Shown here: positions 5,712 to 34,472 of the stretch, one piece after another
Position numbering within the stretch: position 1 is the first letter of the stretch
Layout: each line of letters begins with the position of its first letter
Source: a virus
DNA length: 36,033 bases
IMG/VR virus record: IMGVR_UViG_3300032235_000666
Span: 1 to 36,033 of that record
Reading direction: 5' to 3' (one strand)
Program-made: the position numbers and the translations under genes
Notes under the pieces: model-generated
Database searches by the model: none
The model's input: only the letters and a program-made list of their open reading frames with translations
Told to the model about the DNA's origin: nothing

Positions 5712-6697
5712 ATTTTTTTCCAGTTAGTAAATTTAAGTTTTGCCTGTAATCCACTATAGGTATTTAATTCTACCATCTTCTGAACATTATGTCCAGATAA
5801 AATCATGTCATTAATATCTTTATCCTTTATTGTTGTAGGCCAAATTACAACTCTTTCACCTCGGTCAATTGTTTTGGAGATTCTAGATACAATTTCTGCA
5901 TTTCGTGGTTCGTTATCATACACCCAAACAGGATTGTTAACATTCCACTTATTAAGATCACCATCAGCTCCACAAAGAGCAATCGCGTTTGAAATGAAAG
6001 TGGAATCGAAGGGACCTTCAGTGACATAAATTGTTTCATAATTTTTAATATTATCTAAACCATAAATTTTTGGTGCATCATCATCAATCATGATGGTAAT
6101 ATATTTAACCTTGTTTGAACCTAGTGCTCTTCCTTGAAATCCAACAAATTTATTTTGATAATGAATTGGAATAATAATCCTAGGTTCATCATATTCTAAA
6201 CTTTTTTTATCAAAAGTATGAACTAATGAATTTGTCCATTCTTTGAATTTATCCACATAATAAAATTTATCTGGATTCAGTTTTCTACGTTCAAGATAAA
6301 TTTTTGCCGTGGAATTAGAAGATGCTTTGGGAATATTAAGTTCTTCTGGTTTTTCTTTTTTACTGAAAGTAGGACTTTTAAATTCAAATTTTGGAGTATC
6401 AACAACAAAATTTTTACCAGTATGCCCCTCTTTAAATTTTTCTAAAATATATTGTTTATGTATTTCAGGATCAATAGTTTTCAAAAAATTATTAAAGGAT
6501 AAACTAGATCCACAATTATGACACTTATAGTTTGTATTATTTTTTACCGAGTATAGATATCCTCTAGCCTTTATTCTAGATTTATGAGAATCACCACAAA
6601 TAGGGCAGCGAAAGTTGTAGAGATCTGCTTTAACCCTTTTAAATTTTTGTAGTCTTGGTGATACCAATCCTATGAATTTCACATCAACAAAATCCAT
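5708..6697 (-). CDS. 61: DNA primase, T4 gp61 type
   Basis: The primase makes RNA primers for lagging-strand synthesis and works with the gp41 helicase. The 329-aa product has an N-terminal zinc-binding module (CPIC at 31-34, CHNC at 59-62). A TOPRIM region follows with VTEGPFDS (E227) and an acidic motif VYDNEP near 259-264. The order and length fit gp61 of T4-like phages. It opens the gp61-nrdA-nrdB unit behind a sigma70-type promoter at 6720-6748. Confidence 0.93.
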   Translation of the reverse strand: MDFVDVKFIGLVSPRLQKFKRVKADLYNFRCPICGDSHKSRIKARGYLYSVKNNTNYKCHNCGSSLSFNNFLKTIDPEIHKQYILEKFKEGHTGKNFVVDTPKFEFKSPTFSKKEKPEELNIPKASSNSTAKIYLERRKLNPDKFYYVDKFKEWTNSLVHTFDKKSLEYDEPRIIIPIHYQNKFVGFQGRALGSNKVKYITIMIDDDAPKIYGLDNIKNYETIYVTEGPFDSTFISNAIALCGADGDLNKWNVNNPVWVYDNEPRNAEIVSRISKTIDRGERVVIWPTTIKDKDINDMILSGHNVQKMVELNTYSGLQAKLKFTNWKKI

Positions 6698-6719
6698 TTT
6701 TCATAATCTAGGTTTAACC

Positions 6720-6748
6720 ATGGTAACACTAGTACCTCGTAGTGTCAA
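6720..6748 (-). promoter_or_regulatory. sigma70-type promoter TTGACA-17-TACCAT ahead of gp61
   Basis: A perfect -35 TTGACA (6748-6743) is followed after 17 bp by TACCAT (6725-6720), which matches 4 of 6. It overlaps the end of the 45-aa gene and lies 23 nt before the gp61 start. It probably drives gp61-nrdA-nrdB. Confidence 0.6.
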
Positions 6749-6866
6749 TTGATTTTTCAAACGACTGATAGGACATTATACTTGTCCATTTTATAACAGA
6801 ATTAGTAACTTTTTGAAGATAATATAATGATTTTATTTTCTTCAATTTGATTTCAGTTTTAGTCAT
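6729..6866 (-). CDS. small hypothetical basic protein, 45 aa
   Basis: An ATG-started frame of 45 codons (MTKTEIKLKKIKSLYYL ... SIDTTRY) fills most of the 195-nt gap between gp61 and the coiled-coil membrane protein. The product is basic with an amphipathic-looking start. A late-type AATAAATA lies 24 nt upstream. A small hairpin (GGCG/CGCC, loop AAAA-type, 6868-6880) lies directly before the ATG. No clear ribosome binding site and no family were recognised, so it could be a chance frame. Confidence 0.4.
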   Translation of the reverse strand: MTKTEIKLKKIKSLYYLQKVTNSVIKWTSIMSYQSFEKSIDTTRY

Positions 6867-6889
6867 GGCGTTTTGCGCCGATTTAAATA

Positions 6890-6897
6890 TATTTATT
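6890..6897 (-). promoter_or_regulatory. possible late promoter (AATAAATA)
   Basis: AATAAATA fits the NATAAATA form and lies 24 nt before the 45-aa frame. It overlaps the stop codon of the gene upstream. Confidence 0.4.
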
Positions 6898-7303
6898 TTT
6901 TTATTTGTTCAACTGTGACTGTTTCTGGAATAATAAGAGTTCTTACAGTAGGGATCATACCAACTATTATTAGTAATGCACTTACTATTGCAGCAAATTG
7001 CCATCTAAATTTTTTTAAATCTTCTACTACTTTTTCAAGATTTTCTATTCTAGCTACAACTGTCTTGTGATCTTGTTTATTTTCTTCTTTTAGATTATCA
7101 ATCATTCTCACGATAAGTTCATCTGTTTTTATGCTTTGCTCAATTCTTTCATCATGCTTTGCAAGAATTGTGGCGATGCGAGAATTACCTTCCGAGATCT
7201 TATCTACAGCGGTCTCTAGCTTTGATAACATTTCGCGGGATAAATCTTCATAGATGTTGAGTTTGGATTCAAGAACCGCTAATTTTGATTCTTGTGAGAA
7301 CAT
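6893..7303 (-). CDS. coiled-coil protein with C-terminal membrane segment (XhlA-like)
   Basis: The 136-aa product has a long heptad-type helical region (about residues 5-98, for example DKISEGNSRIATILAKHDER). One hydrophobic segment follows at about 102-120 (FAAIVSALLIIVGMI), then a short charged tail. This layout resembles XhlA-type lysis-associated membrane proteins and conserved unknown proteins of marine T4-like phages. A role in lysis or membrane attachment is inferred from architecture only. It follows the 72-aa gene by 2 nt in a run of small late-region genes. Confidence 0.78.
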   Translation of the reverse strand: MFSQESKLAVLESKLNIYEDLSREMLSKLETAVDKISEGNSRIATILAKHDERIEQSIKTDELIVRMIDNLKEENKQDHKTVVARIENLEKVVEDLKKFRWQFAAIVSALLIIVGMIPTVRTLIIPETVTVEQIKK

Positions 7304-7305
7304 TG

Positions 7306-7524
7306 TTATTTTCCTTTATCGTTAAAGTAATCTAACCAGTTTTTACGAGATTTTTGTCCACCATAAATGTATCTCTTTTGTATTTTTTTACTTCCTAACA
7401 TTTTATCTTTTCCAGCAACAGGACCTTCTGCTGGAGATTTAGTCGAAAAACCACCACCAGTTCCTGGTGCATTAGCAACCATCATTTCTCTAAGTATTTC
7501 AATTACTTTATCAACACTTCTCAT
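7306..7524 (-). CDS. small conserved hypothetical, Gly-rich, 72 aa
   Basis: The product begins with a helix (MRSVDKVIEILREMM), followed by ANAPGTGGGFSTKSPAEGP and a basic tail (KKIQKRYIYGGQKSRKN). The Gly/Pro linker and basic end suggest a small structural or nucleic-acid-contacting protein, but I do not recognise a family. It starts 14 nt inside the end of the 129-aa gene and is followed 2 nt later by the coiled-coil gene, so the three are probably co-transcribed from the late promoter at 8709. Confidence 0.72.
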   Translation of the reverse strand: MRSVDKVIEILREMMVANAPGTGGGFSTKSPAEGPVAGKDKMLGSKKIQKRYIYGGQKSRKNWLDYFNDKGK

Positions 7525-7900
7525 CTTTGTAAACCTTCTGCAGTTCTGCTAAACAATTAACATCAACAGGAACATCATGGATATAACATTTTGGATATTG
7601 TGGTAATCTATTCAAAAATATAACAAAAGTTTTCATTACAGACCACAAATCACGCTCTATTTTATAAAAAAGCATTGGAGTTGTAGCTTCACCAAAAATA
7701 TTATAGAGAATAGTGAAATGATTTATTAAAAGATGTGTTTTTAGTTGTCCACTATTTTTATACCTTTTCAATAATCTTTTAATGTATTTAAAATGGTTCA
7801 AATCCCTATCAAAATCCTCTTTAGTTACTGCTTGAGGATTTTCATAATGTTTAATGGCAAATAATAAAAAATTATCTTCATTCAGTTCATTAAAAAACAT
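7511..7900 (-). CDS. conserved hypothetical protein of T4-like phages, 129 aa
   Basis: The product begins MFFNELNEDNFLLFAIKHYENP and contains DRDLNHFKYIKRLLKRY and FGEATTPMLFYKIERD. I recall similar small proteins from many T4-like phages, always without known function. It is an all-helical-looking soluble protein with no signal peptide or membrane segment. It lies between a virion-type protein gene and two small genes in the late cluster, which suggests a virion assembly role, but this is only context. Confidence 0.75.
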   Translation of the reverse strand: MFFNELNEDNFLLFAIKHYENPQAVTKEDFDRDLNHFKYIKRLLKRYKNSGQLKTHLLINHFTILYNIFGEATTPMLFYKIERDLWSVMKTFVIFLNRLPQYPKCYIHDVPVDVNCLAELQKVYKDEKC

Positions 7901-7906
7901 ATACTA

Positions 7907-8677
7907 TTATGCTAATGGATTTCCGTCGTAAATTGGAGTGTTGCCAGTTGTAATTCCAGACATAGCAACAAGAGTTTCTTTTTTAACTCTTAAGGACCCA
8001 GAACTATCAACATAAGTAGTAACACCAACCCAACCCTCATGAGTTAGTTCATACTTAGTAGTTAATGCACCCTCACGACCTCCAGTGGCAACACCATAAA
8101 CGCTCTTACCATAAGTACCACTAGATCTAGTAATCTTTACAGCAGCACCATTAGCAACAGCACTTGCAATGGTTGATCCAAATGATACAGTTGTTGTACC
8201 AATAGAAGTAATTACTTTTGAAATGCTACCGCTAACAAAAGTATCACCAGCGATAATTCCAGTAGTTGATGCAATAGCAACAGTAGAAACACCAATATTA
8301 GCAGTTGCTCCAGCACTAGTTTGGATTACAACGGTTGTTTCTGCTGGATTATTTTGAATATTATATTGACTATAGTTACTGTCAAGAACTGTATACTTAG
8401 GAAGTTGGCTGATGTCAAATGCCAATCCAGAAATAGCAGCACCACTTAAACCAGCTGTTGATGCAATTGATAGTTGATTTGTTGCCGCAATACTAACAAT
8501 TACAGCGTCACCAACATAAGTTGAATCAGTTCTACTACCAAATCTAATTACATCCCCAGTGGCAGCAGCACCCACTTGTCCAAAAGTAGTTCCAGATCCA
8601 GTTACAACCAATGTAGAATAATTGAGAGATACTGTTCCTCCAGATCCTTTAGCATCATTATTTCCCCAGAGTGCCAT
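7907..8677 (-). CDS. virion structural protein, beta-rich Gly/Thr/Ser type
   Basis: The 256-aa product starts MALWGNNDAKGSGGTVSLN and is made of short beta-type repeats rich in Gly, Thr, Ser, Val and Ala (VVTGSGTTFG, GDVIRFGSR, GTTTVSFGST). This pattern and start resemble structural proteins of marine T4-like phages that I recall; the exact place in the particle is not known to me. It ends in YDGNPLA. A perfect late promoter TATAAATA lies 32 nt upstream, directly after a terminator, which fits strong late expression. Confidence 0.8.
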   Translation of the reverse strand: MALWGNNDAKGSGGTVSLNYSTLVVTGSGTTFGQVGAAATGDVIRFGSRTDSTYVGDAVIVSIAATNQLSIASTAGLSGAAISGLAFDISQLPKYTVLDSNYSQYNIQNNPAETTVVIQTSAGATANIGVSTVAIASTTGIIAGDTFVSGSISKVITSIGTTTVSFGSTIASAVANGAAVKITRSSGTYGKSVYGVATGGREGALTTKYELTHEGWVGVTTYVDSSGSLRVKKETLVAMSGITTGNTPIYDGNPLA

Positions 8678-8708
8678 GTTTTCTATTCCGTAAAGTTAAT
8701 CTAAGAAA

Positions 8709-8716
8709 TATTTATA
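8709..8716 (-). promoter_or_regulatory. T4-type late promoter (TATAAATA)
   Basis: A perfect TATAAATA lies 32 nt before the structural gene. Its first T belongs to the U-tract of the terminator just upstream. Confidence 0.75.
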
Positions 8717-8747
8717 AAAAAGGGAGACGTTACTTTTTGTCTCCCTT
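8716..8747 (-). terminator. rho-independent terminator with a stop codon in its loop
   Basis: A 9-bp stem (AAGGGAGAC with GTCTCCCTT) with a 10-nt loop is followed by a T run. The TAA stop of the 54-aa membrane protein (8732-8730) lies in the loop. Confidence 0.8.
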
Positions 8748-8894
8748 GAGTAAAACTACTTTTAAAAAGTGAGTTATTAAATCGAGTAATCCATTTTCTT
8801 CAAATCTTTTTGTTTTTGCTAACCACTCAGAGGCAGTTAGTAATAGACCAAGAACAATGGTTACTCCCCAGTTAGTTACAAAGCAGGTAATCAT
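8730..8894 (-). CDS. small membrane protein, 54 aa
   Basis: The frame starts at ATG 8894, overlapping the stop of the 59-aa gene as ATGA, and encodes MITCFVTNWGVTIVLGLLLT and then a charged helical tail ending KGDKK. Residues about 8-20 are hydrophobic enough for one short membrane span. Its last codons and stop form the 5' arm and loop of a terminator. It might belong to the lysis apparatus or the virion, but no family is recognised. Coupled translation from the 59-aa gene, which has a strong ribosome binding site, supports it as real. Confidence 0.65.
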   Translation of the reverse strand: MITCFVTNWGVTIVLGLLLTASEWLAKTKRFEENGLLDLITHFLKVVLLKGDKK

Positions 8895-9070
8895 GCTTCA
8901 GACTGTGGTTTAAAGAGAAGTTCTTTAACCGTAGCAAGAACCATATCATCAATACTATTATCAGTTGTCTTTACATATTTCTCAAGAAGTTCAATCACAA
9001 GATTTTTAACTGCTGGGTGAGTGGCAATTTTAAGAAGAAGTGGTTTTACCACTACTACAACTGCGTTCAT
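8891..9070 (-). CDS. small hypothetical protein, 59 aa
   Basis: The product MNAVVVVVKPLLLKIATHP continues into helical charged segments and ends FKPQSEA. The first 20 residues are hydrophobic with two basic residues. A strong GGAGG lies 6 nt before the ATG, and a late-type GATAAATA lies 31 nt upstream. Its stop overlaps the start of the 54-aa membrane protein. The two form a small cistron pair between two large late genes. I do not recognise a family. Confidence 0.7.
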   Translation of the reverse strand: MNAVVVVVKPLLLKIATHPAVKNLVIELLEKYVKTTDNSIDDMVLATVKELLFKPQSEA

Positions 9071-13470: not shown

Positions 13471-13502
13471 AATTGAATGCGTTTATTTACATGTATTTAG
13501 AA

Positions 13503-13584
13503 TGCCCAAAAGAGGACTTGAACCTCCACAGATATATCTACAGGAACCTAAACCCTGCGCGTCTACCAATTCCGCCATTTGGGC
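13503..13584 (-). tRNA. tRNA-Leu (anticodon UAG)
   Basis: The 82-nt sequence folds as a tRNA. It has acceptor GCCCAAA with TTTGGGC and discriminator A, D-arm with GGTAGACGC, anticodon stem CAGGG/TCCTG with loop TTTAGGT, a long variable arm typical of leucine, and T-loop TTCAAGT. The 3' CCA is not encoded. It reads CUA-type codons, which are frequent in AT-rich phage genes. Confidence 0.95.
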
Positions 13585-13587
13585 ATT

Positions 13588-13611
13588 ATTCGCTATTTGC
13601 AAATAGCGAAT
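13588..13611. repeat. perfect 24-nt palindrome between the two tRNA genes
   Basis: The sequence is self-complementary over 24 nt, with centre ATTTGCAAAT and arms ATTCGCT/AGCGAAT. It starts at the discriminator base of tRNA-Ala and ends 3 nt before tRNA-Leu. In RNA it would form a hairpin between the two tRNAs. Confidence 0.9.
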
Positions 13612-13683
13612 GGAGAATAGCGGACTTGAACCGCTGACATCCTGCTTGCAAAGCAGGCGCTCTACCAACTGAGCTAATTCCCC
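13611..13683 (-). tRNA. tRNA-Ala (anticodon UGC)
   Basis: The 73-nt sequence has acceptor GGGGAAT/ATTCTCC, which includes the G3-U70 pair that marks alanine tRNAs, and discriminator A. The D-arm is GCTC/GAGC, the anticodon stem CCTGC/GCAGG with loop TTTGCAA, and the T-stem AGCGG/CCGCT with loop TTCAAGT. CCA is not encoded. It is transcribed first of the two tRNAs. Confidence 0.96.
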
Positions 13684-13745
13684 AGATGGATTAAGTGTGA
13701 TATGCCTCAAGGACATTCAGGGACTTAACCTCTATCATAGTATAT

Positions 13746-13775
13746 AGTATAAAACCCCCCCAACTAAAAAGTCAA
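13746..13775 (-). promoter_or_regulatory. sigma70-type promoter TTGACT-18-TATACT ahead of the tRNAs
   Basis: TTGACT (13775-13770) and TATACT (13751-13746) are separated by 18 bp, about 60 nt before tRNA-Ala. The -35 box lies inside a hairpin (13755-13781, CCCCTTGAC pairing with GTTGGGGGG through G-U pairs), followed by TTTT. That hairpin may act as a weak mazG terminator. Confidence 0.65.
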
Positions 13776-13791
13776 GGGGTTAAATCAATAA

Positions 13792-14199
13792 TTAAAGATC
13801 CCCTTCCACCCTATTTTCAGAACGATAAACATCAAAAGTTCCTTCAGGATAACGGGCACTCAACTTTTTATAATTTCTTTCCATAACATCTTCAAAAGAA
13901 ACATCAAGTGCCATACATGCTTGAGCGGCATACCAAAGAATATCACCCAATTCAATTTTAAGATGTTCGATATTTTCTTCGGTATATGGTTTACCTTGGA
14001 AAATAATCTTCTTAACAATTTCAGTGAACTCCCCAGCTTCGGCACTCATACCAACAGCAGCAGTTAATAGACGGGGAACATCACAATCTAATGTTTCAAG
14101 TTCTGTCAGACGAGATAAGAATGCTGCATAGTCGGTACTTGCAGCACTAGTAGTTTGACGTACAAAATCAATATATTTGTTTGTATCGATGGTTGCCAT
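13792..14199 (-). CDS. mazG: MazG-like nucleotide pyrophosphohydrolase
   Basis: MazG proteins split NTPs or alarmone-like nucleotides to monophosphates. Phage versions are thought to adjust nucleotide pools during infection. The 135-aa product has the signature: E54 and E57 in SAEAGEFTE, then E83 and D86 in KIELGDILWYAAQ, which gives the ExxE...ExxD metal site. The length fits the single-domain phage form. It has its own well-formed promoter at 14223-14251, which overlaps the end of the upstream dehydrogenase gene, so it can be expressed apart from the sugar cassette. Confidence 0.92.
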   Translation of the reverse strand: MATIDTNKYIDFVRQTTSAASTDYAAFLSRLTELETLDCDVPRLLTAAVGMSAEAGEFTEIVKKIIFQGKPYTEENIEHLKIELGDILWYAAQACMALDVSFEDVMERNYKKLSARYPEGTFDVYRSENRVEGDL

Positions 14200-14222: not shown

Positions 14223-14251
14223 ATTGTATCAATATAACCAGTTTTGGTCAA
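14223..14251 (-). promoter_or_regulatory. sigma70-type promoter TTGACC-17-TACAAT ahead of mazG
   Basis: TTGACC (14251-14246) and TACAAT (14228-14223) have a 17-bp spacer, and each box matches 5 of 6. The TGA stop of the dehydrogenase gene (14250-14248) lies inside the -35 box. The mazG start is 24 nt downstream. Confidence 0.72.
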
Positions 14252-15471
14252 GGATTAAATCGGGTATTGCCGTAATGAATTACGAAGACATCATCAGATT
14301 TAAATTTTCTCCAAGGGTCAACAACAATGCTTCTCTTAGGGATTTCACAATAGAGTTCATCATTACTACCATCATGCCAATAAGTTGTAGAGGCACTGTG
14401 GGCAAGAAGAAAAACTGCTGGACCATCAGGAGTATAATCATCTCCAGTGTATTTGTCAACATAGATGGGCGGTTTACCCATTTGAGTGCAGTAGTGCCCA
14501 ACTAAGATACTATAACTTCCATCAATATAAGGAACTTTTGGTTTGTATGCTTTACCATGAATAACAATAGGTAAACCACCATCAGTATTTGCAAGTTCTA
14601 CTAAACGTTCAGCAAGTTTTTTTGCTTGCATTTCACGAGATCTCATAATACCTTCAAAGAAATCGTATCCGAGTTCCAATTTTTCAGCAAGGTGACGAAG
14701 AGCAATGTTATCTCTAGGATGACAAGCACCACCATCACCCATACCAGCCTTCATGTAATGTGGACTAATGATTCTTGAAGCACCCAAACATAAGGCATTA
14801 GTAACAATATCAACATTAATATTGTGAGAATGTTCCGCAACATCTTGGATCATGTTAACAAAACTAATCTTACTGCTAATGAATGTATTATAAAAAACTT
14901 TAATACATTCACATTCATCCCAAGTTCCAACAACATATGGAGGATCATTCTCCATAATTGTCTCATAAAATTGAATTAATTGTTTAGCATCCCCAGTTTT
15001 AGTTCCGTCTTCAGTACCAATCATAACCATTTCGGGATTAACCATATCCCAAGCAACAGATCCCATTGCAATAAGATATGGATTATAAACAAAACGAGTA
15101 TTATTAACTAATTGCCAGAATTGAGTTCTAGTTGTACCAGGAAGAACTGTAGAAATAAGAACCAAAAGTTGATCCTTATTCATATATTTGTTTGCTTCAA
15201 TTAAACATTCTTTTACAATATCATAATTAAAGTCTTTTGGTTCCAAATCCATACATGGTTTACTACCATCATATTCTGGATCATGGGGAGTGGGTACAGC
15301 AATAAAAACAATTTCTCTACCTTCAACTGCTTCTTTAATAGAGTTTGTAATAGTAACTAAATTACTGCTGCGTTCTGAAACGTCATACCCACTTACAGTA
15401 TGCCCACGAAGAACAATCTCCTCTGCACATGGCATTCCAAGTTTACCTAATCCAATAAAACCAATGTTCAT
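14248..15471 (-). CDS. UDP-glucose/GDP-mannose dehydrogenase family, full length
   Basis: These enzymes oxidise a nucleotide sugar at C6 to the uronic acid with two NAD+. The 407-aa product has an N-terminal Rossmann motif (GFIGLGKLG), a central domain with K191 and N195 in KVFYNTF, the catalytic Cys C250 in GGACHPRDN, and a complete C-terminal sugar-binding domain (VIHGKAYKPKVPY). The usual CxPKD motif reads CHPRD here, with Arg for Lys. I chose ATG 15471, with AGGGAG 5 nt upstream, over the GTG at 15477. It is almost contiguous with the amidinotransferase gene, so the two are probably co-expressed. Confidence 0.9.
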   Translation of the reverse strand: MNIGFIGLGKLGMPCAEEIVLRGHTVSGYDVSERSSNLVTITNSIKEAVEGREIVFIAVPTPHDPEYDGSKPCMDLEPKDFNYDIVKECLIEANKYMNKDQLLVLISTVLPGTTRTQFWQLVNNTRFVYNPYLIAMGSVAWDMVNPEMVMIGTEDGTKTGDAKQLIQFYETIMENDPPYVVGTWDECECIKVFYNTFISSKISFVNMIQDVAEHSHNINVDIVTNALCLGASRIISPHYMKAGMGDGGACHPRDNIALRHLAEKLELGYDFFEGIMRSREMQAKKLAERLVELANTDGGLPIVIHGKAYKPKVPYIDGSYSILVGHYCTQMGKPPIYVDKYTGDDYTPDGPAVFLLAHSASTTYWHDGSNDELYCEIPKRSIVVDPWRKFKSDDVFVIHYGNTRFNP

Positions 15472-15473
15472 AA

Positions 15474-16451
15474 TCACTCCCTCTCAAGATCCAAAGTTAC
15501 ACAGTGAAAACCACCACTTAGGGTACGCTGATGCCTCATAGGAAGCATAGCACATTCTATACCAGCTTTTTCAAGAACTTTTCTGGTTGAGTGTTGATGC
15601 TCTTCAAGAGCAACTAAATTAGGATTTACACTAAACAAATTCATATTCACCCATTCTGAAGCATTATTATACCCTGGATAATATCCAATGTCTACTGGTT
15701 CTGGACACCAAATAATATCCCACCGACTAAAAGGTTCTGGAAGAACATCTCTAGATTTAATTCTACTTGGATTTGCTAAAAGTAAACCTTCACGCAAAAA
15801 TGCTACGGTAGTATCAATATGCACATAACTATAAACATTTTCCAAATAATGAACTTTGTATTGAACACTAGATCCATCATTCAATATATTAGAAATTTTT
15901 CCACCACCAGATTTATTTCCACTATTAGATACAAGATATAAAATATGTTCATTGGCACGTATTGCATTGGCAGCATCAAATGCTACTATATTTTCATTTA
16001 GTGCTAAAATGTCTGGATCACCAATACAATTTTCATTGTAAAGATCATCCATATAATTACATTTTAATTCTATAATATCATTTTTAAAATGATGTGCCAT
16101 TGATCTCCAATTATCTTTTCTAGATCTCAATGGCATAGGTGCAGAAATGACTTTATCACCATGAATAAAAATACAATCTCTAGGGCAAAAATTATAATAT
16201 TCAGTTGGTTCTTTTTTTGGTCTTAAAACCTCAACATTTTCTTTCTTTAAAAAGTCAACAAATATTTCCAAATCTTCATTTGCTTCATCTATTACTTGTT
16301 TGGGATAAGGTCCTGTTTTAATAGTATTTTCATCTTTAATATCAGCATAATTAATAGTCCGAAGACTTTTATCCAAAGGAGGAATAGTGGCATAATCAGA
16401 AACTCCCACTATAACCTTTTTCAGTTTACCCCATTCATTAGTACTATACAT
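15474..16451 (-). CDS. amidinotransferase (glycine/inosamine-phosphate amidinotransferase family)
   Basis: Family members move the amidino group of arginine to an amine, giving a guanidino product and ornithine. The 325-aa product has the expected catalytic triad: D159 in AFDAANAIRA, H211 in HIDTTVAF and C317 in GGFHCVT near the C-terminus. NFCPRD near 87-92 is also typical. The size is closer to StrB-type and bacterial enzymes than to the longer eukaryotic form. It has its own promoter (16467-16495) and is followed by a UDP-sugar dehydrogenase. The acceptor is unknown. An amino sugar made by the DegT enzymes nearby is an inference. Confidence 0.87.
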   Translation of the reverse strand: MYSTNEWGKLKKVIVGVSDYATIPPLDKSLRTINYADIKDENTIKTGPYPKQVIDEANEDLEIFVDFLKKENVEVLRPKKEPTEYYNFCPRDCIFIHGDKVISAPMPLRSRKDNWRSMAHHFKNDIIELKCNYMDDLYNENCIGDPDILALNENIVAFDAANAIRANEHILYLVSNSGNKSGGGKISNILNDGSSVQYKVHYLENVYSYVHIDTTVAFLREGLLLANPSRIKSRDVLPEPFSRWDIIWCPEPVDIGYYPGYNNASEWVNMNLFSVNPNLVALEEHQHSTRKVLEKAGIECAMLPMRHQRTLSGGFHCVTLDLERE

Positions 16452-16466
16452 CTATTAAATAATCAC

Positions 16467-16495
16467 ATTTTAAATTATTTCTACCCAATTGTCAA
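16467..16495 (-). promoter_or_regulatory. sigma70-type promoter TTGACA-17-TAAAAT ahead of the amidinotransferase
   Basis: A perfect TTGACA (16495-16490) and TAAAAT (16472-16467), 17 bp apart, lie 16 nt before the start codon. The TGA stop of the last GT25 copy (16494-16492) lies inside the -35 box. Confidence 0.7.
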
Positions 16496-17295
16496 CAATC
16501 AACTCTAATTGTCATTTTTTCATCATTCAATTTCCCATAAGTAAAGAATTCATCTAAAGTGAAATCATTTCTTTTATTGATCCACCAATAATAATAATAT
16601 TTTTTACACAAATCATGATGTTTTCTATCAATTTTTACATCATATTCAGTACTACCAAGTTCTGTATTTGTAGTAATTAAAGGTATACAATATGTTCTTC
16701 CAGTGTGCCCAATAAAATAATCTACAGTAATAGAACAATCTCTAAATGTTACATCACCAACCAATCTATCTAAACAATACTTATCACCAACAGTATGTAA
16801 TCTTAATATTTTTTCAGCATATTCTCTAGTAATTAAAATTGGACCAAAAAAACTCCCCCTAGTTTTAGGATGTAAAAAGAATGGAATGTATTCTTTGGTT
16901 TCAAATCCCAATTGAATACAATCCCAATCATAAGGAAGTCTCGACATCAAGTAGTCCCAATCAAAATGCCAATATCTTATTAAGTTCAAATCATAATCAT
17001 CTTCCATTAAAATAACATAAGGGTCATTGGTAGTGTTTAACCATGATTTCAAGGTTTCAAAATGACTTATAGCAGTTCCTACAACATACGCAGGTATATT
17101 TTTTACTTTTCCATGAATTAAATTTCCCCATTCATTGGATTTTGAAGCCAAATATTTGGAAGTAGAAACTCTTGTATAATTTGTTATACCCCAATGTAAA
17201 AACTGTTTTTCCATATATTCCCTCCTATCCAATCTATTATCCAAATTTAAGTAATAGATATGAGGTATATTTTTCAATTTATTAAATAAATCCAT
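16492..17295 (-). CDS. GT25-like glycosyltransferase, copy F
   Basis: The 267-aa product matches the GT25 layout (LPS/procollagen-type galactosyltransferases). The N-terminal motif is IPHIYYLNLDNRLDRR with WGITNYTRVS, the acidic metal site is MEDDYDL near residue 95, and YWHFDWDYLMSRLPYDWDCI follows. GPILITREYAEKILRLH comes next, and the C-terminal signature is FTLDEFFTYGKLND. The acidic motif is intact, so activity is likely. The ATG at 17295 overlaps the preceding TGA (TGATG); a GTG at 17298 is less likely. It is the last of six tandem copies. The sugar and acceptor are unknown. Confidence 0.87.
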   Translation of the reverse strand: MDLFNKLKNIPHIYYLNLDNRLDRREYMEKQFLHWGITNYTRVSTSKYLASKSNEWGNLIHGKVKNIPAYVVGTAISHFETLKSWLNTTNDPYVILMEDDYDLNLIRYWHFDWDYLMSRLPYDWDCIQLGFETKEYIPFFLHPKTRGSFFGPILITREYAEKILRLHTVGDKYCLDRLVGDVTFRDCSITVDYFIGHTGRTYCIPLITTNTELGSTEYDVKIDRKHHDLCKKYYYYWWINKRNDFTLDEFFTYGKLNDEKMTIRVDC

Positions 17296-18104
17296 CACTC
17301 AAATAACCACCAACTATAGTTTTTAATTTTTCTAATCATAGAAATATCATTTGGTTTACCATAAGTAAAAAACTCATCCAATGTAGTTTTATTAGATTGT
17401 TTCTCCCACCAATCATAGTACGCATTTCTACAAGCAGATATTAATTTATATTTTTTACTTTCCTTATTTAAAAATTTAGGATTAGAGGGTAGCAATGGTA
17501 TAGAATAAGTTTTTCCATTATGCCCTATAAAATAATCAATGGTCCCAGAGTGACCTCCCATGTTCATATTTGCAATATAATTAGACAATTTGTATTTGCC
17601 ATCAAAATGATGTAACTTTATTATTTTTTTAGCATAGTGCCTGTTAATTAAAGAAGGTCCAAAAGTGTGGCTTGGTAATATTGGGTGTAGATAAAAAGGA
17701 ATTATTGAGACATTTTCAAATCCCAATTGAATACAATCCCAATCATAAGGAATATTTTGCATTATGGTTTTCCAATCAAAAATCCAATGATTTATTATAT
17801 CAAAATCAGTTGTATCCTTTATTAAAATAAAATATGAATCATCCGTTTCATCTAACCATTTTTTAATAAATTCAAGAACCGTTACAGAATATGCAGATAC
17901 ATTATAGTTTAACTTATATAATTCTAAATCTAATACCTTTTCTACAACATTATTTTCATTATACTTGGATGCAGATATTCTCTCAAAATTTGTTATACCA
18001 AATTTTGCAAATTGATCTTCAATATATTTTTTTCTATTTAAATGTTGATCATAATTTAAATAGTATATTTTAGGTATTCCAACTAATTTTTCATGTAAGT
18101 CCAT
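17295..18104 (-). CDS. GT25-like glycosyltransferase, copy E, acidic motif degenerate
   Basis: The 269-aa product keeps the family frame: IPKIYYLNYDQHLNRK, the FDW...PYDWDCIQLGFE block, GPSLINRHYAKKIIKLHH and the tail TTLDEFFTYGKPND. The metal-binding MEDDYDL of its neighbours has become IKDTTDF, which removes the EDD triplet. It may be inactive or have a changed role, while its frame stays intact. I chose ATG 18104 because all copies begin MDL/MNL just before this point; ATG 18113 is the alternative. It lies between two copies with intact motifs. Confidence 0.83.
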   Translation of the reverse strand: MDLHEKLVGIPKIYYLNYDQHLNRKKYIEDQFAKFGITNFERISASKYNENNVVEKVLDLELYKLNYNVSAYSVTVLEFIKKWLDETDDSYFILIKDTTDFDIINHWIFDWKTIMQNIPYDWDCIQLGFENVSIIPFYLHPILPSHTFGPSLINRHYAKKIIKLHHFDGKYKLSNYIANMNMGGHSGTIDYFIGHNGKTYSIPLLPSNPKFLNKESKKYKLISACRNAYYDWWEKQSNKTTLDEFFTYGKPNDISMIRKIKNYSWWLFE

Positions 18105-18105
18105 A

Positions 18106-18993
18106 TTATTCATATTCTACTAATAATTGTTCTCTTATACTTATCATCTTATTAAAAAAATATTTAGGATCGCAGTCAACAACACTCCTTTGCATCATTC
18201 CATCATTAGATTTATTATACGTAAAAAATTCATCTAGAGTAAACTTATCACGTTCATACTTCCACCAATCATAGTAAGTATCTAAACATATTTGCATGTG
18301 TGGTCTTGGTAACCAAACATTATCCTCAAAACTACCAAAACATGGATTTAATGGAATTAATGGTAATGCATACGTTTTGCCATTTTGACACAGGAAATAA
18401 TCTCCAGTACCAGAAACACTCTTGTACCCTTTATGATTTTTCCAGACAGCGTTTCCTATATTATTATCTAACTTATATCTATCACCAATACAATGTAGTC
18501 TCAATAGTTTTTTAACATAATCTCTATTAAGCAAACATGGTCCCAAAGAATACTCATAATTTAATGGATGTAAATAAAAGGGAATTATATCTGGTGATTC
18601 AAATCCCAACATAATACAATCCCAATCATAAGGAAGTCTTGACATCAAGTAATCCCAATCAAAATGCCAGTATTTAATTATTCCTAAATCATAATCATCT
18701 TCCATCAATATTAAATATTCATCATTAGTTGTATCCAACCATTCTTTTAAAAAATCAAAATGTGTTATTGCATGTGCAACAGCATAAGAAAATGAATTCG
18801 TGGTATCTCCTATTATCAAATGTTTCCACTTCTCTTTTTCCGACACTAAAAACTTTGATGCAGAAATTCTAGTAAAGTTATCCAATCCCCAATTTTTGAA
18901 TTGGGTTTCCATATACTTTTTTCTATCCACCCTTTCATCAAGATTAACGTAGTAAATATGTGGTATATTTTTTAATTTATTTTCTATAATCAT
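18106..18993 (-). CDS. GT25-like glycosyltransferase, copy D
   Basis: The 295-aa product has an intact GT25-type layout: IPHIYYVNLDERVDRKKYME, MEDDYDLGIIKYW near residue 95, FDWDYLMSRLPYDWDCIMLG, GPCLLNRDYVKKLLRLH and the tail FTLDEFFTYNKSND. A C-terminal extension of about 35 residues follows. The start overlaps the end of copy C by 17 nt. The acidic site is complete, so this is one of the copies likely to be active. Confidence 0.87.
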   Translation of the reverse strand: MIIENKLKNIPHIYYVNLDERVDRKKYMETQFKNWGLDNFTRISASKFLVSEKEKWKHLIIGDTTNSFSYAVAHAITHFDFLKEWLDTTNDEYLILMEDDYDLGIIKYWHFDWDYLMSRLPYDWDCIMLGFESPDIIPFYLHPLNYEYSLGPCLLNRDYVKKLLRLHCIGDRYKLDNNIGNAVWKNHKGYKSVSGTGDYFLCQNGKTYALPLIPLNPCFGSFEDNVWLPRPHMQICLDTYYDWWKYERDKFTLDEFFTYNKSNDGMMQRSVVDCDPKYFFNKMISIREQLLVEYE

Positions 18994-19837
18994 ACATCTT
19001 ATATTGTGTTGGGTTATAAACCATTAGGTAATCATTGGGTTTTCCATAAGTAAAAAATTCATCTAAAGTAAATTTATCTCTTTCATGTTTCCACCAATAA
19101 TAATAGGTATTCCTTGCCATAACATCTCCACCCTGCCTGTAAATGTTATGTTGAATTCTGCTGTGATTTTCAAAACTACCAAAATCAGGGTTTGTTGTTA
19201 TTAGAGGTATAGTATAAGTTTTTCCAGGATGGCACATAAAATAATCAACTGTTCCAGAACCAGCAACATCTTCTTGCCTATTCCAAGCAGCACTACAAAC
19301 AGTGTTTATTAATTTGTACTTATCATCTACACAATGTAATCTTATTAATTTCTCTACATAATTTCTATTCAATAGACATGGACCAAAATCATGGGCAGAA
19401 TCTATAGGGTGTAAATAAAATCTAAGTCCCAAAGGATTTTCATATCCAAGTTGAATACAGTCCCAATCATAAGGAAGTCTTGACATCAAATACTCCCAAT
19501 CAAAATGCCAATATTCTATCAAACTTAAATCATAATCGTCTTCCATCAATATTAAATATTCATCATCACTACTGTCTAACCAAGTTTTCAAAAAATCTAA
19601 GTGTGTTATTGCATTTGCAGCAATAGGAACTAGAAGATTATAATTTTGATTATCAAGTATTAAATGTCTCCACTCATCTTTTTTGGATGCTAAAAATTTA
19701 GTTCCAGATATTCTAGTATAATTTGTCACACCCCATCTTTCAAATTGGGTTTCCATGTATTCTCTTCTATCTGTCCTATTATCAAGATTAAAATAATAAA
19801 TGTGAGGTATTCCTTTTAGCTTGTTATCTAAATCCAT
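18977..19837 (-). CDS. GT25-like glycosyltransferase, copy C
   Basis: The 286-aa product has an intact acidic motif (MEDDYDLSLIEYW) and FDWEYLMSRLPYDWDCIQLG. GPCLLNRNYVEKLIRLH and the tail FTLDEFFTYGKPND follow. It is closest by eye to copies D and F: the three share nearly the same motif strings, which points to recent duplication. The start overlaps copy B by 10 nt. The donor sugar cannot be read from sequence. Confidence 0.87.
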   Translation of the reverse strand: MDLDNKLKGIPHIYYFNLDNRTDRREYMETQFERWGVTNYTRISGTKFLASKKDEWRHLILDNQNYNLLVPIAANAITHLDFLKTWLDSSDDEYLILMEDDYDLSLIEYWHFDWEYLMSRLPYDWDCIQLGYENPLGLRFYLHPIDSAHDFGPCLLNRNYVEKLIRLHCVDDKYKLINTVCSAAWNRQEDVAGSGTVDYFMCHPGKTYTIPLITTNPDFGSFENHSRIQHNIYRQGGDVMARNTYYYWWKHERDKFTLDEFFTYGKPNDYLMVYNPTQYKMYDYRK

Positions 19838-20673
19838 AATATTTTTTGCTCATCTGACATAAATTTTATATTTAACGCTTCACCATGTACCTTATTTTGA
19901 TAATCATCATCCAAAAAAATTTTCATTTTAGAATCATTTGATTTACAATAATGAAATTTATCAAAAATAGTAAATAACTTTGATTTTGTTCTCCACCAAT
20001 TTTCTGTAGTAATAGAAGAAATCTTTTCATCATTATCTTCATAATTACCCCAAGTATTAAAAATAGGGAACATATAACATACACCTAATTCAAATAGAAA
20101 AAAATTTATATTCCCATAATAGTATTCTTGCACACCATAATTATTACTATTAATGTGTAATTTATATTTGCCCTCATAAAAATGTAATTTTTTTATTTTT
20201 TTGGCGAATTGTCTAGTTACCATAAAACATTTTGATTTATATATTTCATCTTCTTTTGGTTTAAGATGCATAGAAATAGTATCAGATTTAATAACATTTA
20301 ACTGTATACAATCCCAGTTATACGGTAAGCATGTCATTAAAAAATTCCAATCAAAAGACCAATATTCGGCCAAGTCAATATTTACATTATCGTCCATAAA
20401 AATACAGTATTGATCGTCACAATTGTCATACCAATCAATAATAGTTTTTAAATATATTAAATTGTATTGCAACTGGTTATCATCTAAAGATAGATTTTTA
20501 TCTAAAATTAATTTTTTATAGTTTTTAAGTTCATAAGAAATTCTCTCATAGTTAGTTATCTCCCACTTAGAAAAATTATCTTCCATAATTTTTCTATTAG
20601 AATTATTTTGATCAAGATTAAAATAATATATTTTAGGAAGTCCTGTAAGTTTATTTTTATGTTCTATATTCAT
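19828..20673 (-). CDS. GT25-like glycosyltransferase, copy B, strongly diverged
   Basis: The 281-aa product is the least like the others. It retains LPKIYYFNLDQNNSNRK, WEITNYERIS, a DWNFLMTCLPYNWDCIQL block and a worn C-terminal signature (FTIFDKFHYCKSND). The acidic motif reads MDDNVNIDL instead of MEDDYDL, and the usual arginine-rich N-terminal motif is altered. It has a longer tail after the signature. It may act on another substrate or be losing function. It overlaps copies A and C by 4 and 10 nt, so it is still held in the operon. Confidence 0.8.
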   Translation of the reverse strand: MNIEHKNKLTGLPKIYYFNLDQNNSNRKIMEDNFSKWEITNYERISYELKNYKKLILDKNLSLDDNQLQYNLIYLKTIIDWYDNCDDQYCIFMDDNVNIDLAEYWSFDWNFLMTCLPYNWDCIQLNVIKSDTISMHLKPKEDEIYKSKCFMVTRQFAKKIKKLHFYEGKYKLHINSNNYGVQEYYYGNINFFLFELGVCYMFPIFNTWGNYEDNDEKISSITTENWWRTKSKLFTIFDKFHYCKSNDSKMKIFLDDDYQNKVHGEALNIKFMSDEQKILWI

Positions 20674-21545
20674 AATGTTATATAAGTGTTATTGAAAGAT
20701 GGTATTGTTATTGTCATTTTGTAATCAGTAGATTTATTATAATTGAAAAAATCTTCTGCAGTAAATTGTTGACTTTCATTCATCCACCACTTTCTAATAT
20801 AGTAACTAGAAAATATATCATTCATTTTGTTATGATGCATTTTTATAGTATCATCATACTCCTGACCTGGAAATAAACTTGGTTTATTATCTGGATTTTG
20901 TGATAGGTGTTGATTTAATGAGAATAATGGTAATGTATAATTAATACCAACTTGATATATTAAAAAGTCATCACTACTGTAACAAGGTTTTTCTACTCTA
21001 CAATCTCTCAAACTATTATCAAGTTTAAACCCACCATCAGGTCTTAAATGCATTTTAATTAGTTTTTCAGCATACCATCTATTAATCATATAACATGCAC
21101 CTGAGCAGCAATTATGAAGTCTTTTTTTAAGGTGCATTGGAATATATGCATAATGACAGAAATATAAAAGAATACAATCCCAATTATAAGGTAGATTTTT
21201 CATTAAATAGTCCCAATCAAACATCCAATATTCGATTAGTTCTAAAGATAAATCATCTTGCATAATGATACAATATTCTGAAATTCCAGAATTGTACCAA
21301 TCGATTATTGTTGTAAATTGGTTCATTACAATTGAAGCATCTGAAGGAGTTAATAACATTAAATCTAACTTATCCTTCCATTCATCAATTTTATCAATAG
21401 AATATCGAGAAGCAGAAACTCTAGTATAGTCTGTTATTCCCCATTTTTTAAATTGGTTCTCCATATTAGTTTTTCTATCAATTCTATGGTCCAAATTTTG
21501 ATAGAATATTGGAGGTAAATTTTTTAATTTATTGTCTAAATTCAT
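20670..21545 (-). CDS. GT25-like glycosyltransferase, copy A
   Basis: The 291-aa product is the first transcribed of the six. It has LPPIFYQNLDHRIDRK, WGITDYTRVSASRY, an acidic motif MQDDLSLELIEYW near residue 95 (QDD for EDD), FDWDYLMKNLPYNWDCILL, and a tail FTAEDFFNYNKSTD. An insert before the tail makes it longer than copies C and F. The aspartates of the motif are kept, so activity is plausible. It overlaps the short DegT gene by 4 nt (ATGA). Confidence 0.83.
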   Translation of the reverse strand: MNLDNKLKNLPPIFYQNLDHRIDRKTNMENQFKKWGITDYTRVSASRYSIDKIDEWKDKLDLMLLTPSDASIVMNQFTTIIDWYNSGISEYCIIMQDDLSLELIEYWMFDWDYLMKNLPYNWDCILLYFCHYAYIPMHLKKRLHNCCSGACYMINRWYAEKLIKMHLRPDGGFKLDNSLRDCRVEKPCYSSDDFLIYQVGINYTLPLFSLNQHLSQNPDNKPSLFPGQEYDDTIKMHHNKMNDIFSSYYIRKWWMNESQQFTAEDFFNYNKSTDYKMTITIPSFNNTYITL

Positions 21546-22141
21546 TTTTTAAAAACCTCCATATCAGGTAAATATGGGTAATTCAAGTATCCATATCGTT
21601 TAGGTTGTTTATAAGCAACCTCTTTAAATTTTTCAATACCAGACATCGCAATTTCTGGTGTCATATAATAATGATATCCAACCATACTTATATTTTGTTC
21701 TCCCCATGGTTTATCTGATGTTCTTCCATCATAGACCATTTTTTTAATAGTATCATGTGCATCTTTATTATCCAATAAAATTATTCCACCCCTACCCAAA
21801 CTTAAATGTTTTCTAAATTGAAAACTTATACACATGTAAGTTTCAGGAATATAACTATTTTTTTCCCATAAAAAAGCAGCATCTATTATATTAGTGTTTC
21901 CAAGATAGTAATAATCACGCCATTGATAATTTTTTTTCCAATCCCATTTCAACCCAAGTTTCTCAGCAGTAAATGGAATTGAAATATAAGTATGCTCTGG
22001 AATAAGAATGTTATCATATTGCTCATATCTTAAGCACAATTCAATTGCATGTGTGCAACAATCAGTTGCCACAGCATACGGAGAATTAAAAAATTTTGCT
22101 ATTAATTTTTCAAAATCGTCGATAACAGAAAAACTATTCAT
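21542..22141 (-). CDS. half-length DegT/DnrJ/EryC1/StrS aminotransferase-like protein
   Basis: Full family members are near 380 aa and use PLP to aminate keto sugars. This one has 199 aa but keeps recognisable landmarks in order: SPYAVATDCCTHAIELCLR, IIDAAFLW (D87) and FQFRKHLSLGRGGIILL with K111 at the PLP lysine position. The C-terminal domain and part of the large domain are missing. The frame is clean, with 4-nt overlaps on both sides, so it is not a recent frameshift wreck. It could be a compact form, a binding partner of the full-length enzyme at 24967-26106, or inactive. Confidence 0.75.
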   Translation of the reverse strand: MNSFSVIDDFEKLIAKFFNSPYAVATDCCTHAIELCLRYEQYDNILIPEHTYISIPFTAEKLGLKWDWKKNYQWRDYYYLGNTNIIDAAFLWEKNSYIPETYMCISFQFRKHLSLGRGGIILLDNKDAHDTIKKMVYDGRTSDKPWGEQNISMVGYHYYMTPEIAMSGIEKFKEVAYKQPKRYGYLNYPYLPDMEVFKK

Positions 22142-22782
22142 ATTGATTTACCATAAAGAATGAAATCTTTTTCATATAATTTGTAAAAATAATTTAAATT
22201 AATTTTAACATACTTTTCAAATATTTTTTCACAAGTAAGTTTTGTGATTAAATTACTTTCTCTCTCAACATTCAAAGTTATTTTATTGGAATATAATATT
22301 AATTTGTTTATTTTATCTTCCAATCCACTATCCATTTTTAAGTATGTGTTGGTTAGTTTGGTTATGCATGGATCTATAGATAAATGCTGTGGTGCAGTAT
22401 GAAGATCAAATATATATTTTTTATTTTTAACTTGTTCAACAATATAGTCAATAGATCCATCAAATCTATTCATAAATTCACCAATACCAGAAATCCATCT
22501 TTTTACAGGATCCCGTATTACACAAAAAGATCTATATTTTTTAGTGCATAATAATAAATTGATATCATCTTCACTGAAATTAATCATATCAATAAACGCA
22601 GATTTTTGTAATGCTGACGATATTGATGTACTAGCACATTTATCTATATGCAAATATATCAGTTTTTCTTTTGCACTTATGTAAGATCCATTAAATTTTT
22701 GTTTATTTTCAGTATTTAAATTTCTATATTTAAATGTGAAAGAAGAACAATAGTTAGAATATTCATTTATAACATTATCCAT
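22138..22782 (-). CDS. sulfotransferase-like protein
   Basis: Sulfotransferases move sulfate from PAPS to a hydroxyl or amine, often on a sugar. The 214-aa product has a 5'-phosphosulfate loop in YLHIDKCASTSISSAL (K48, near residues 45-53) and a 3'-phosphate site in FCVIRDPVKRWISG (R90 with Ser98). Both resemble the Sulfotransfer_2-type carbohydrate enzymes. The ATG at 22782 overlaps the oxygenase stop by 8 nt; a TTG at 22788 is less likely. It sits in the sugar cassette, so the acceptor is probably a glycan. This is by context. Confidence 0.78.
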   Translation of the reverse strand: MDNVINEYSNYCSSFTFKYRNLNTENKQKFNGSYISAKEKLIYLHIDKCASTSISSALQKSAFIDMINFSEDDINLLLCTKKYRSFCVIRDPVKRWISGIGEFMNRFDGSIDYIVEQVKNKKYIFDLHTAPQHLSIDPCITKLTNTYLKMDSGLEDKINKLILYSNKITLNVERESNLITKLTCEKIFEKYVKINLNYFYKLYEKDFILYGKSI

Positions 22783-23296
22783 TATCAATTCTTGCAGTTA
22801 CCTGTAAAGTATATCTATTTTCTCTACCTATATTAGCAGCAATATGAGGTGCTTCCCCAATCCACATACAACAATCACCTTTTTTCCAATTAGTTATGGG
22901 ATTATCATCAACTTCAAAATAATGCCCAGATTTCCAATCATCCAAGAATACAAGAATTCTACACAACTCATTAGGATCATCTACATTTAATATTTTTTTA
23001 TATACTGGATAGGTATCTTTATGCTCTGGCATTATAGTTCCAGGAGACATGCAATATAAGCACAGTTTAGCATCTGATATTTTAAACTTTTCAATGACAT
23101 CTTGTAGAACATCATAACACCATGCGGGAAGACCTTTATATTCTTCAATCAAAAATCCAGTATAGTTTACATACAAGTGTCCAATTTCTTTCCAAGTGTT
23201 GACAGTATTATCATCTGGAAATTGCCTTCTAGGAGAATAATTTAAATTTTTAAATTCACCTATCAAATCTGGGTTAATTCTTTTAAAGTAATGCAT
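22775..23296 (-). CDS. 2OG-Fe(II) oxygenase-like (Asp/Asn hydroxylase type)
   Basis: The 173-aa product has a double-stranded beta-helix motif set: H92 and D94 in PEHKDTYP, H151 in EAPHIAANIG and R161 in ENRYTLQVT. These fit an HxD...H iron site and a 2-oxoglutarate arginine as in aspartyl/asparaginyl hydroxylase-like proteins. The central block is RILVFLDDWKSGHYFEVDD. I chose ATG 23296, inside the end of the epimerase gene (14-nt overlap), over the GTG at 23314. The substrate may be a sugar, a protein or a small molecule. Confidence 0.78.
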   Translation of the reverse strand: MHYFKRINPDLIGEFKNLNYSPRRQFPDDNTVNTWKEIGHLYVNYTGFLIEEYKGLPAWCYDVLQDVIEKFKISDAKLCLYCMSPGTIMPEHKDTYPVYKKILNVDDPNELCRILVFLDDWKSGHYFEVDDNPITNWKKGDCCMWIGEAPHIAANIGRENRYTLQVTARIDNG

Positions 23297-24206
23297 CGTT
23301 TTTATACCACTCACACGTTTTCTTCAATCCTTCATCAATAGAAGTAAACTTTGTTATATTAGTTATATCAGTTAATAAATCAATATTTGGACATCTCCTA
23401 TTGACCGATCCTTCTTTAGATTTCAAAATATTAATCTGAGGATCGTATTCAAATATAGAAAATATTTTATATATCAAATCTTTTATTACAATCTCATCAG
23501 CAACACCGAGATTGATAATTCTACCATCACTAAGAGAACTATTCATAATAAGATCCAACATGGTTACAGCATCATCAATATAACAAAATGATCTAGTTTG
23601 ATCCGCACCATATATTTTAAATGGAGTTTCTTTTAAAAGAACTCTTTTAATAACTTCTGGAATTACATGATTATATCCCATTCGTGGACCATAAACATTA
23701 TGTGGTCTAACTATAGAAAAATTAATACCAGAATTTATAAACAACAATTCACCAAATATTTTACTTCCAGCATAAGACCATCTAGGATTATATACATCAT
23801 CAATAGAAACTACCACATCTTCTTTTGTTGGTATTTCCTTTTCTTTAGTTGAAGCATATACTTCAGATGAAGAGGTATACAATACCTTTTTCACTTTCGT
23901 TTTTTTACACCATTTTATAAGATTTATATTAATTAACGTATTAACTTCCAATACCTCATAGGGAATTTCATAGAAATTACTAGTACCATTTATTGCAGCA
24001 AAATGATAAACATAATCATAATTATCTAATTTATCATAATCTTTTTCTTTTGTTAGATCACACTCAATATAATTAAGATCTTCGACAAAATTATCATTCT
24101 TACCTCTAAAATTATTATCACAAATAGTGACATCATTATTTTTGCACAGGTAATTTGCTAAGTGTGATCCTATAAATCCAGTACCACCAGTTATAAGTAT
24201 TTTCAT
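23283..24206 (-). CDS. NAD-dependent sugar epimerase/dehydratase (extended SDR)
   Basis: Extended SDR enzymes act on nucleotide sugars as epimerases, dehydratases or decarboxylases. The 307-aa product has the Rossmann motif GGTGFIGSH (7-15), YHFAAINGT, the active-site TSSSEVY (111-117) and YAGSK with Y145 and K149. RPHNVYGPR and YGADQTRSFCYIDDA complete the family pattern. The length is normal. It overlaps the dehydrogenase gene by 4 nt upstream and the oxygenase gene downstream. The exact reaction is not decided by these motifs. Confidence 0.9.
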   Translation of the reverse strand: MKILITGGTGFIGSHLANYLCKNNDVTICDNNFRGKNDNFVEDLNYIECDLTKEKDYDKLDNYDYVYHFAAINGTSNFYEIPYEVLEVNTLININLIKWCKKTKVKKVLYTSSSEVYASTKEKEIPTKEDVVVSIDDVYNPRWSYAGSKIFGELLFINSGINFSIVRPHNVYGPRMGYNHVIPEVIKRVLLKETPFKIYGADQTRSFCYIDDAVTMLDLIMNSSLSDGRIINLGVADEIVIKDLIYKIFSIFEYDPQINILKSKEGSVNRRCPNIDLLTDITNITKFTSIDEGLKKTCEWYKNDALL

Positions 24207-34397: not shown

Positions 34398-34472
34398 TAT
34401 AGTAGCTCCTTTAAAAGCGAGTTTGTGTTTTGTGGACCCTTTCGGCGTCCTCAATATTATATATCAATATAT

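Follow-up and report, generated by a model that had tools for sequence, protein, structure and literature searches.

A glycan cassette between gp41 and MazG

The window analysed here is a 36-kb stretch of virus DNA (IMG/VR record IMGVR_UViG_3300032235_000666, positions 1 to 36,033) that carries nearly all of its genes on the minus strand. The polB, uvsX, gp41, ribonucleotide reductase and MazG genes match those of Synechococcus T4-like phages, with S-SRM01 the best match to the uvsX-gp41 part (83.5%), and the source is a cyanobacterial phage. A glycan cassette sits between gp41 and MazG. From the gp41 side, the order of genes and sites is:

26099-26671, minus strand: 2OG-Fe(II) oxygenase (PF13640, 5e-13)
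24967-26106, minus strand: full-length DegT aminotransferase, PseC-like (below cut-off; PF01041, 4.6e-87)
24203-24970, minus strand: UGD1, short nucleotide-sugar dehydrogenase of 255 aa that retains the NPEFLREG glutamates
23283-24206, minus strand: NAD-dependent epimerase/dehydratase, LegB/dTDP-glucose dehydratase-like (below equivalog cut-offs)
22775-23314, minus strand: AspArgHyd, 2OG oxygenase of Asp/Arg hydroxylase type (PF05118, 1.4e-5)
22138-22788, minus strand: sulfotransferase (PF03567, 1.1e-7)
21542-22141, minus strand: DegT_s, half-size DegT sugar aminotransferase of 199 aa (PF01041, 51.8 bits, cut-off 19.8)
16492-21545, minus strand: six tandem GT25-like glycosyltransferase paralogs (phrog_2835 for the first; weak PF01755), namely 1-3 at 16492-17298, 17295-18113 and 18106-18993 and 4-6 at 18977-19837, 19828-20673 and 20670-21545
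16467-16495, minus strand: sigma-70-type promoter TTGACA-17-TAAAAT before AMT, hexamers and spacing conserved in L001-L009
15474-16451, minus strand: AMT, StrB1-like arginine amidinotransferase of 325 aa, with D159/H211/C317 (phmmer, model, invariant triad)
14248-15477, minus strand: UGD2, nucleotide-sugar-dehydrogenase relative (PF00984, 4e-17; PF03721, 1e-15; alignment)
13792-14199, minus strand: MazG pyrophosphohydrolase (PF03819)
13756-13779, minus strand: intrinsic-terminator-like hairpin 3' of MazG, the first such site downstream of UGD2

The GT25-like paralogs overlap one another and are 34-57% identical to the first in alignment; their assignment to GT25 draws on PHROG, a sub-threshold Pfam match and a paralog in phage S-SCSM2R, the PDB profile match being weak (E 0.012). 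Paralog number and divergence differ between relatives. Elsewhere the window encodes tRNA-Ala (tgc) and tRNA-Leu (tag) downstream of MazG (13502-13684, minus strand) and an HSP20 small heat-shock protein (33963-34454, minus strand; PF00011, 2.6e-13). PADLOC returned no match for AMT, UGD2, DegT_s or AspArgHyd, and a role in defence or counter-defence was rejected.

The initial annotation gave AMT and a UDP-sugar dehydrogenase a promoter of their own, and the site is indeed present (16495-16467, minus strand). It occupies the 40-nt gap before AMT, with TTGACA overlapping the stop of the upstream gene. The match alone is weak evidence, since promoter-like sites are no more frequent in the region (121) than in shuffles (118.0). 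However, L001/L002, L003/L004, L005-L008 and L009 all retain the site, never with more than one mismatch and always with a 17-nt spacer, at a chance of 0.003-0.009 each per 60 nt. Between different lineages the spacers agree at 2-11 of their 17 positions, and at 2-6 when L004 or L009 is compared with the others. Because hexamers and spacing are conserved while the spacers have diverged, separate control of AMT in the window lineage is likely, and the AMT step may be timed apart from the upstream cassette. At other loci, where the gap between AMT and the gene before it is mostly only a few bases, any candidate site has two or more mismatches, and lineages lacking the promoter retain the same gene order. 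A two-gene unit is too narrow a description: downstream of UGD2 the first terminator-like site comes only after MazG, at 13779-13756, although such hairpins are not significant as a class (4 found against 5.1 expected in shuffles). In the window lineage the added promoter would therefore transcribe AMT, UGD2 and probably, by read-through, MazG apart from the genes upstream.

An amidinotransferase related to StrB1

The catalytic triad predicted for AMT (D159/H211/C317) is found at those positions and is invariant across 34 aligned AMTs, the distant Campylobacter phage enzyme included. By phmmer the nearest solved protein is StrB1 (L-arginine:inosamine-phosphate amidinotransferase, Streptomyces griseus, PDB 1bwd), at 184 bits against 99; amidinotransferase matches range from E 5e-53 to 2e-23, with no deiminase among the matches listed. 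A profile search likewise puts StrB1 nearest, at 258 bits against 152. Foldseek also ranks StrB1 nearest to the AlphaFold model of AMT (mean pLDDT 82), and VIA-align superposes the two over 317 residues (Z 41.7, rmsd 1.7; next Z 37.4). Amidinotransferases fill its first six ranks (Z 36.5-41.7), while deiminase and DDAH structures start at 24.6, the value for arginine deiminase. The earlier preference for an amidinotransferase over a deiminase is thus borne out by phmmer, Foldseek and VIA-align. In sequence, tree and model AMT is nearest to StrB1 of streptomycin biosynthesis and far from arginine deiminase, and it very probably has arginine amidinotransferase activity.

AMT and StrB1 have in common the pentein fold, the Asp/His/Cys triad, about 36% identity over the full length and a flap with a conserved Tyr in place of the DPNPM of AGAT. 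StrB1 belongs to an antibiotic cluster, whereas AMT lies in a phage glycan cassette, and no cyclitol genes were recognised within the window. The acceptors would differ in kind: inosamine phosphate for StrB1 and, for AMT, most likely an amino sugar on a nucleotide carrier that DegT_s would produce. The flap residues before the catalytic His, described as bearing on substrate binding (PMC4887976), read VYSYV in the window AMT and VYSY[MV] or close variants across the viral clade; at this position StrB1 has LYAST and AGAT has DPNPM. AGAT/GATM (L-arginine:glycine amidinotransferase, K00613) resembles AMT in fold and triad (Z 36.6-36.8) but has other flap residues and lower similarity; its 300-flap Asp-Pro-Asn-Pro-Met is absent from the window AMT, and no creatine-pathway partner was identified. 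A creatine-pathway role was rejected because the flap is unlike that of AGAT. A further paper, PMC11360552, treats GAMT and not the viral AMT clade.

In the IQ-TREE phylogeny 38 viral AMTs group in one clade (support 100/95), to which StrB1 and an actinobacterial/chloroflexal pair are joined; the long branch of human AGAT is of unsure placement, and the Campylobacter phage enzymes fall far outside the viral clade. Purifying selection acts on AMT, UGD2 and DegT_s (dN/dS 0.065-0.22). One AMT query retrieved 186 coding stretches from IMG/VR and a divergent query 188, in overlapping sets, and Synechococcus phage S-SCSM2R is an isolate with an AMT annotated as inosamine amidinotransferase (PQ898602.1). 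The gene is therefore common in aquatic phages, where the expectation that it would be unusual does not hold. The S-SCSM2R enzyme belongs to the same viral clade (about 69% identical), and its cassette likewise has DegT_s, GT25-like transferases and 2OG oxygenases; it differs in that no UGD2 adjoins the gene, the cassette includes a radical SAM gene and a GT2 gene follows downstream. The amidinotransferase of Campylobacter phage CP220 (Firehammervirus) also keeps the triad and lies near nucleotide-diphospho-sugar transferase genes, but it is only 28% identical and is surrounded by radical SAM genes, with no DegT_s found nearby. A scan with the CP220 enzyme as query returned two loci only.

DegT_s, Gmd and a predicted route to a guanidino sugar

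What does AMT travel with? The 151 viral AMT loci reduce to 68 representatives at 95% identity, 53 of them with sufficient flank. DegT_s is near AMT in 51 of these 53 loci, AspArgHyd in 50 and GT25-like transferases in 37, counts which are not unbiased frequencies because the loci were gathered by similarity to AMT queries and the neighbours labelled by BLAST with window proteins. The two loci without DegT_s are L044, where Gmd lies directly upstream of AMT, and that of CP220 (L220). Sampling by DegT_s instead finds AMT at only 23 of 53 loci, the asymmetry that an earlier step for DegT_s would produce. In the full, redundant set of fetched viral loci, 182 have AMT with DegT_s, 28 DegT_s with Gmd, 26 DegT_s alone, 5 AMT alone, 3 AMT with Gmd and one (L059) all three. 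The constant partner of AMT is DegT_s, not UGD2, and DegT_s is the commoner gene. AMT thus fits a tailoring step after transamination, since it is nearly always found with DegT_s while DegT_s often occurs without it.

DegT_s has an invariant PLP lysine (K111) and D87 in 28 sequences. Foldseek places GDP-perosamine synthases first for its model (pLDDT 92; E 2.6e-10), and VIA-align matches it to sugar aminotransferases at Z 16.9-18.9 over 186-197 residues, a broad tie that includes the GDP-perosamine synthases. The protein lacks the C-terminal small domain and is 199 aa throughout the phage family, against 357-440 residues in solved members, and so falls short of a full-length DegT/DnrJ/EryC1/StrS protein (~370 residues plus the small domain). 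IMG/VR holds at least 566 relatives of DegT_s.

At many loci without AMT, Gmd directly follows DegT_s (PF16363, E 3e-110 or lower in the four examined). At L040 and L044 Gmd runs over the start of AMT, and the pair is preceded by a WbuC-type cupin, in L044 also by a "sporadic carbohydrate cluster" 2OG protein. The L044 row (5535-8966) comprises this protein, a TIGR04324/TIGR04323 fusion, then the cupin, Gmd and AMT. Gmd proteins beside DegT_s or AMT score 364-379 bits against a gmd equivalog cut-off of 415, so GDP-mannose is a likely but not certain substrate. The 36-kb window has no Gmd; two longer contigs of its type (G001 and G011) carry a full Gmd (557-566 bits) and a fucose-synthase relative elsewhere on the contig. 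Across longer records Gmd was matched in 5 of 16, one of them weakly, and was not found in 11, some complete-sized; Gmd was rejected on this count as a universal partner of AMT.

These neighbourhoods recall the GDP-perosamine pathway (Gmd plus a DegT-family perosamine synthase), both in the Gmd-DegT_s adjacency of phages without AMT and in the match of the DegT_s model to perosamine synthase. The phage system, whose reaction is a predicted one, differs in its half-size DegT_s and added amidinotransferase. A 4,6-dehydratase, the phage's Gmd in some lineages and a distant phage gene or host enzyme in others, would supply a nucleotide-linked keto sugar. DegT_s would convert the keto group to an amine, as GDP-perosamine synthase does, and AMT would transfer the amidino group of arginine to this amine via a covalent Cys317 intermediate, yielding a guanidino sugar and ornithine. 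GT25-like transferases could then attach this sugar to a virion glycan or to one at the surface of the infected cell, with further tailoring by the 2OG oxygenase and sulfotransferase.

From gene content and models, a nucleotide amino sugar is a reasonably likely acceptor for AMT, while GDP-perosamine specifically is a possible but rather doubtful one. That a guanidinylated nucleotide sugar, for example GDP-4-guanidino-4,6-dideoxy-mannose, arises through the half-size aminotransferase and AMT and is put on a glycan can be proposed tentatively. The broader reading, of a StrB1-like tailoring enzyme in a phage glycan cassette whose guanidino sugar is made via the DegT_s amine, seems to us on balance probable. 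The nearness of StrB1, DegT_s and AspArgHyd at almost every locus, DegT_s-Gmd adjacency without AMT, the Gmd-AMT overlap in L040 and L044, the fold of DegT_s, Gmd elsewhere in window-type relatives and purifying selection speak for it; the NRPS-like clusters of bacterial relatives, the absence of Gmd from the window, the missing small domain of DegT_s and the low Gmd scores speak against. The guanidino-sugar product foreseen in the initial annotation is likely, on the strength of the DegT_s and Gmd neighbourhoods and not of the pairing with UGD2.

Other candidate acceptors and the place of UGD2

A different possibility is that AMT makes a small guanidino metabolite (a guanidino amino acid, guanidinoacetate or a guanidino cyclitol phosphate) and lies in the cassette by coincidence. 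Bacterial relatives at 34-39% identity lie near PALP, ornithine-cyclodeaminase-like, AMP-binding/PP-binding and phosphopantetheinyl transferase genes, and these NRPS-like clusters suggest diaminopropionate as the acceptor there, so that homology does not fix the acceptor of AMT. Surveys, moreover, assign viral GATM to glycine/arginine metabolism (PMC8226683, PMC10653327). However, the viral AMTs stand apart from that bacterial clade in the tree, DegT_s or Gmd is adjacent or near at nearly all loci, and the flap is unlike that of AGAT; we regard a small metabolite as unlikely. Locus L086 (5862-13281) and similar loci in marine Halieaceae and other bacteria combine amidinotransferase relatives with PALP, ornithine-cyclodeaminase-like and AMP-binding/PP-binding genes, and possibly encode an undescribed guanidino-peptide pathway.

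AMT could also act later, on an amino group of the finished glycan or on a protein side chain. GT25 relatives and 2OG oxygenases co-occur in protein hydroxylation and glycosylation, and the cassette holds several 2OG oxygenases. Yet the nearest solved relatives of AMT use small molecules and the association with DegT_s and Gmd points to precursor synthesis, which makes a glycan or protein target quite improbable.

Pairing with UGD2 was the third candidate, a two-enzyme unit for a guanidino uronic acid. The start of UGD2 is either GTG 15477, which overlaps the AMT stop, or ATG 15471 (TGA-TT-ATG), to within a base of the 3 nt after the upstream stop first given; the gene ends at 14248. Its NAD-binding and central domains, with the catalytic Cys, are present (PF03721 and PF00984 above cut-off), and C250, K191 and N195 are invariant in the alignment. 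The NPEFLREG glutamates serve thioester hydrolysis in characterised members of the UDP-glucose/GDP-mannose dehydrogenase family. In all 9 of 9 aligned UGD2 proteins this motif reads NPYLIAMG, with both conserved glutamates lost, so that UGD2 may yield something other than a free uronic acid. UGD2 also scores 148.8 bits against a cut-off of 189.8 for NDP-sugar dehydrogenase (TIGR03026), and no Pfam match to a C-terminal UDP-binding domain came up at 1e-3, though a divergent domain is possible. With this score and the glutamates missing, UDP-sugar dehydrogenase is at most a putative name for it.

Nor do the loci support UGD2 as the defining partner of AMT. It lies near AMT in 27 of the 53, of which 18 have it directly downstream and 9 on the opposite strand, and is absent from the vicinity of AMT in 26. 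The 18 adjacent pairs, with the common promoter in the window lineage, favour a joint function. Against this, L009 is 93% identical to the window in UGD2 and 98% in MazG but 74% in AMT and 38-72% in the other cassette genes, which argues that AMT and UGD2 were exchanged separately; the cassette of L009 seems to have been exchanged through AMT, with UGD2 moving with the flank. The jump in identity between AMT and UGD2/MazG (L009, 8001-13108) is a sign of recombination at the cassette edge. Phage Bellamy has close UGD2 relatives with no AMT nearby. On co-occurrence AMT-UGD2 did not hold up as a functional unit, and with the catalytic glutamates lost as well a guanidino uronic acid is very unlikely. 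The Bellamy relative has NadE-like, carbamoyltransferase and methyltransferase genes in its vicinity, and in HTVC008M a UGD2 relative adjoins NadE.

That AMT is a hydrolase of arginine deiminase or DDAH type, with which it has the pentein fold, Cys/His/Asp chemistry and a weak arginine deiminase match over its last 56 residues (18.5 bits against a cut-off of 414) in common, is scarcely credible given the structural ranking and the StrB1 branch of the tree, and was rejected on sequence, model and tree.

The preferred reading remains a guanidino sugar made through DegT_s. Enzymes of this type are known, and one isolate has the gene annotated, whereas no description of the module or of a phage guanidino-sugar pathway was found in the openly licensed papers searched; the same holds for the guanidinylated nucleotide sugar and its route, if real. 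The gene association yields a concrete route (Gmd, DegT_s, AMT) with a minimal, half-size sugar aminotransferase, and where surveys place the viral enzyme in glycine/arginine metabolism, its neighbourhoods point to glycan tailoring. Since AMT is almost always near DegT_s and sugar-transfer genes, a strongly basic guanidino sugar destined for a surface glycan is probable. Such a glycan would carry a permanent positive charge, which could alter adsorption, superinfection exclusion or protection of the virion.
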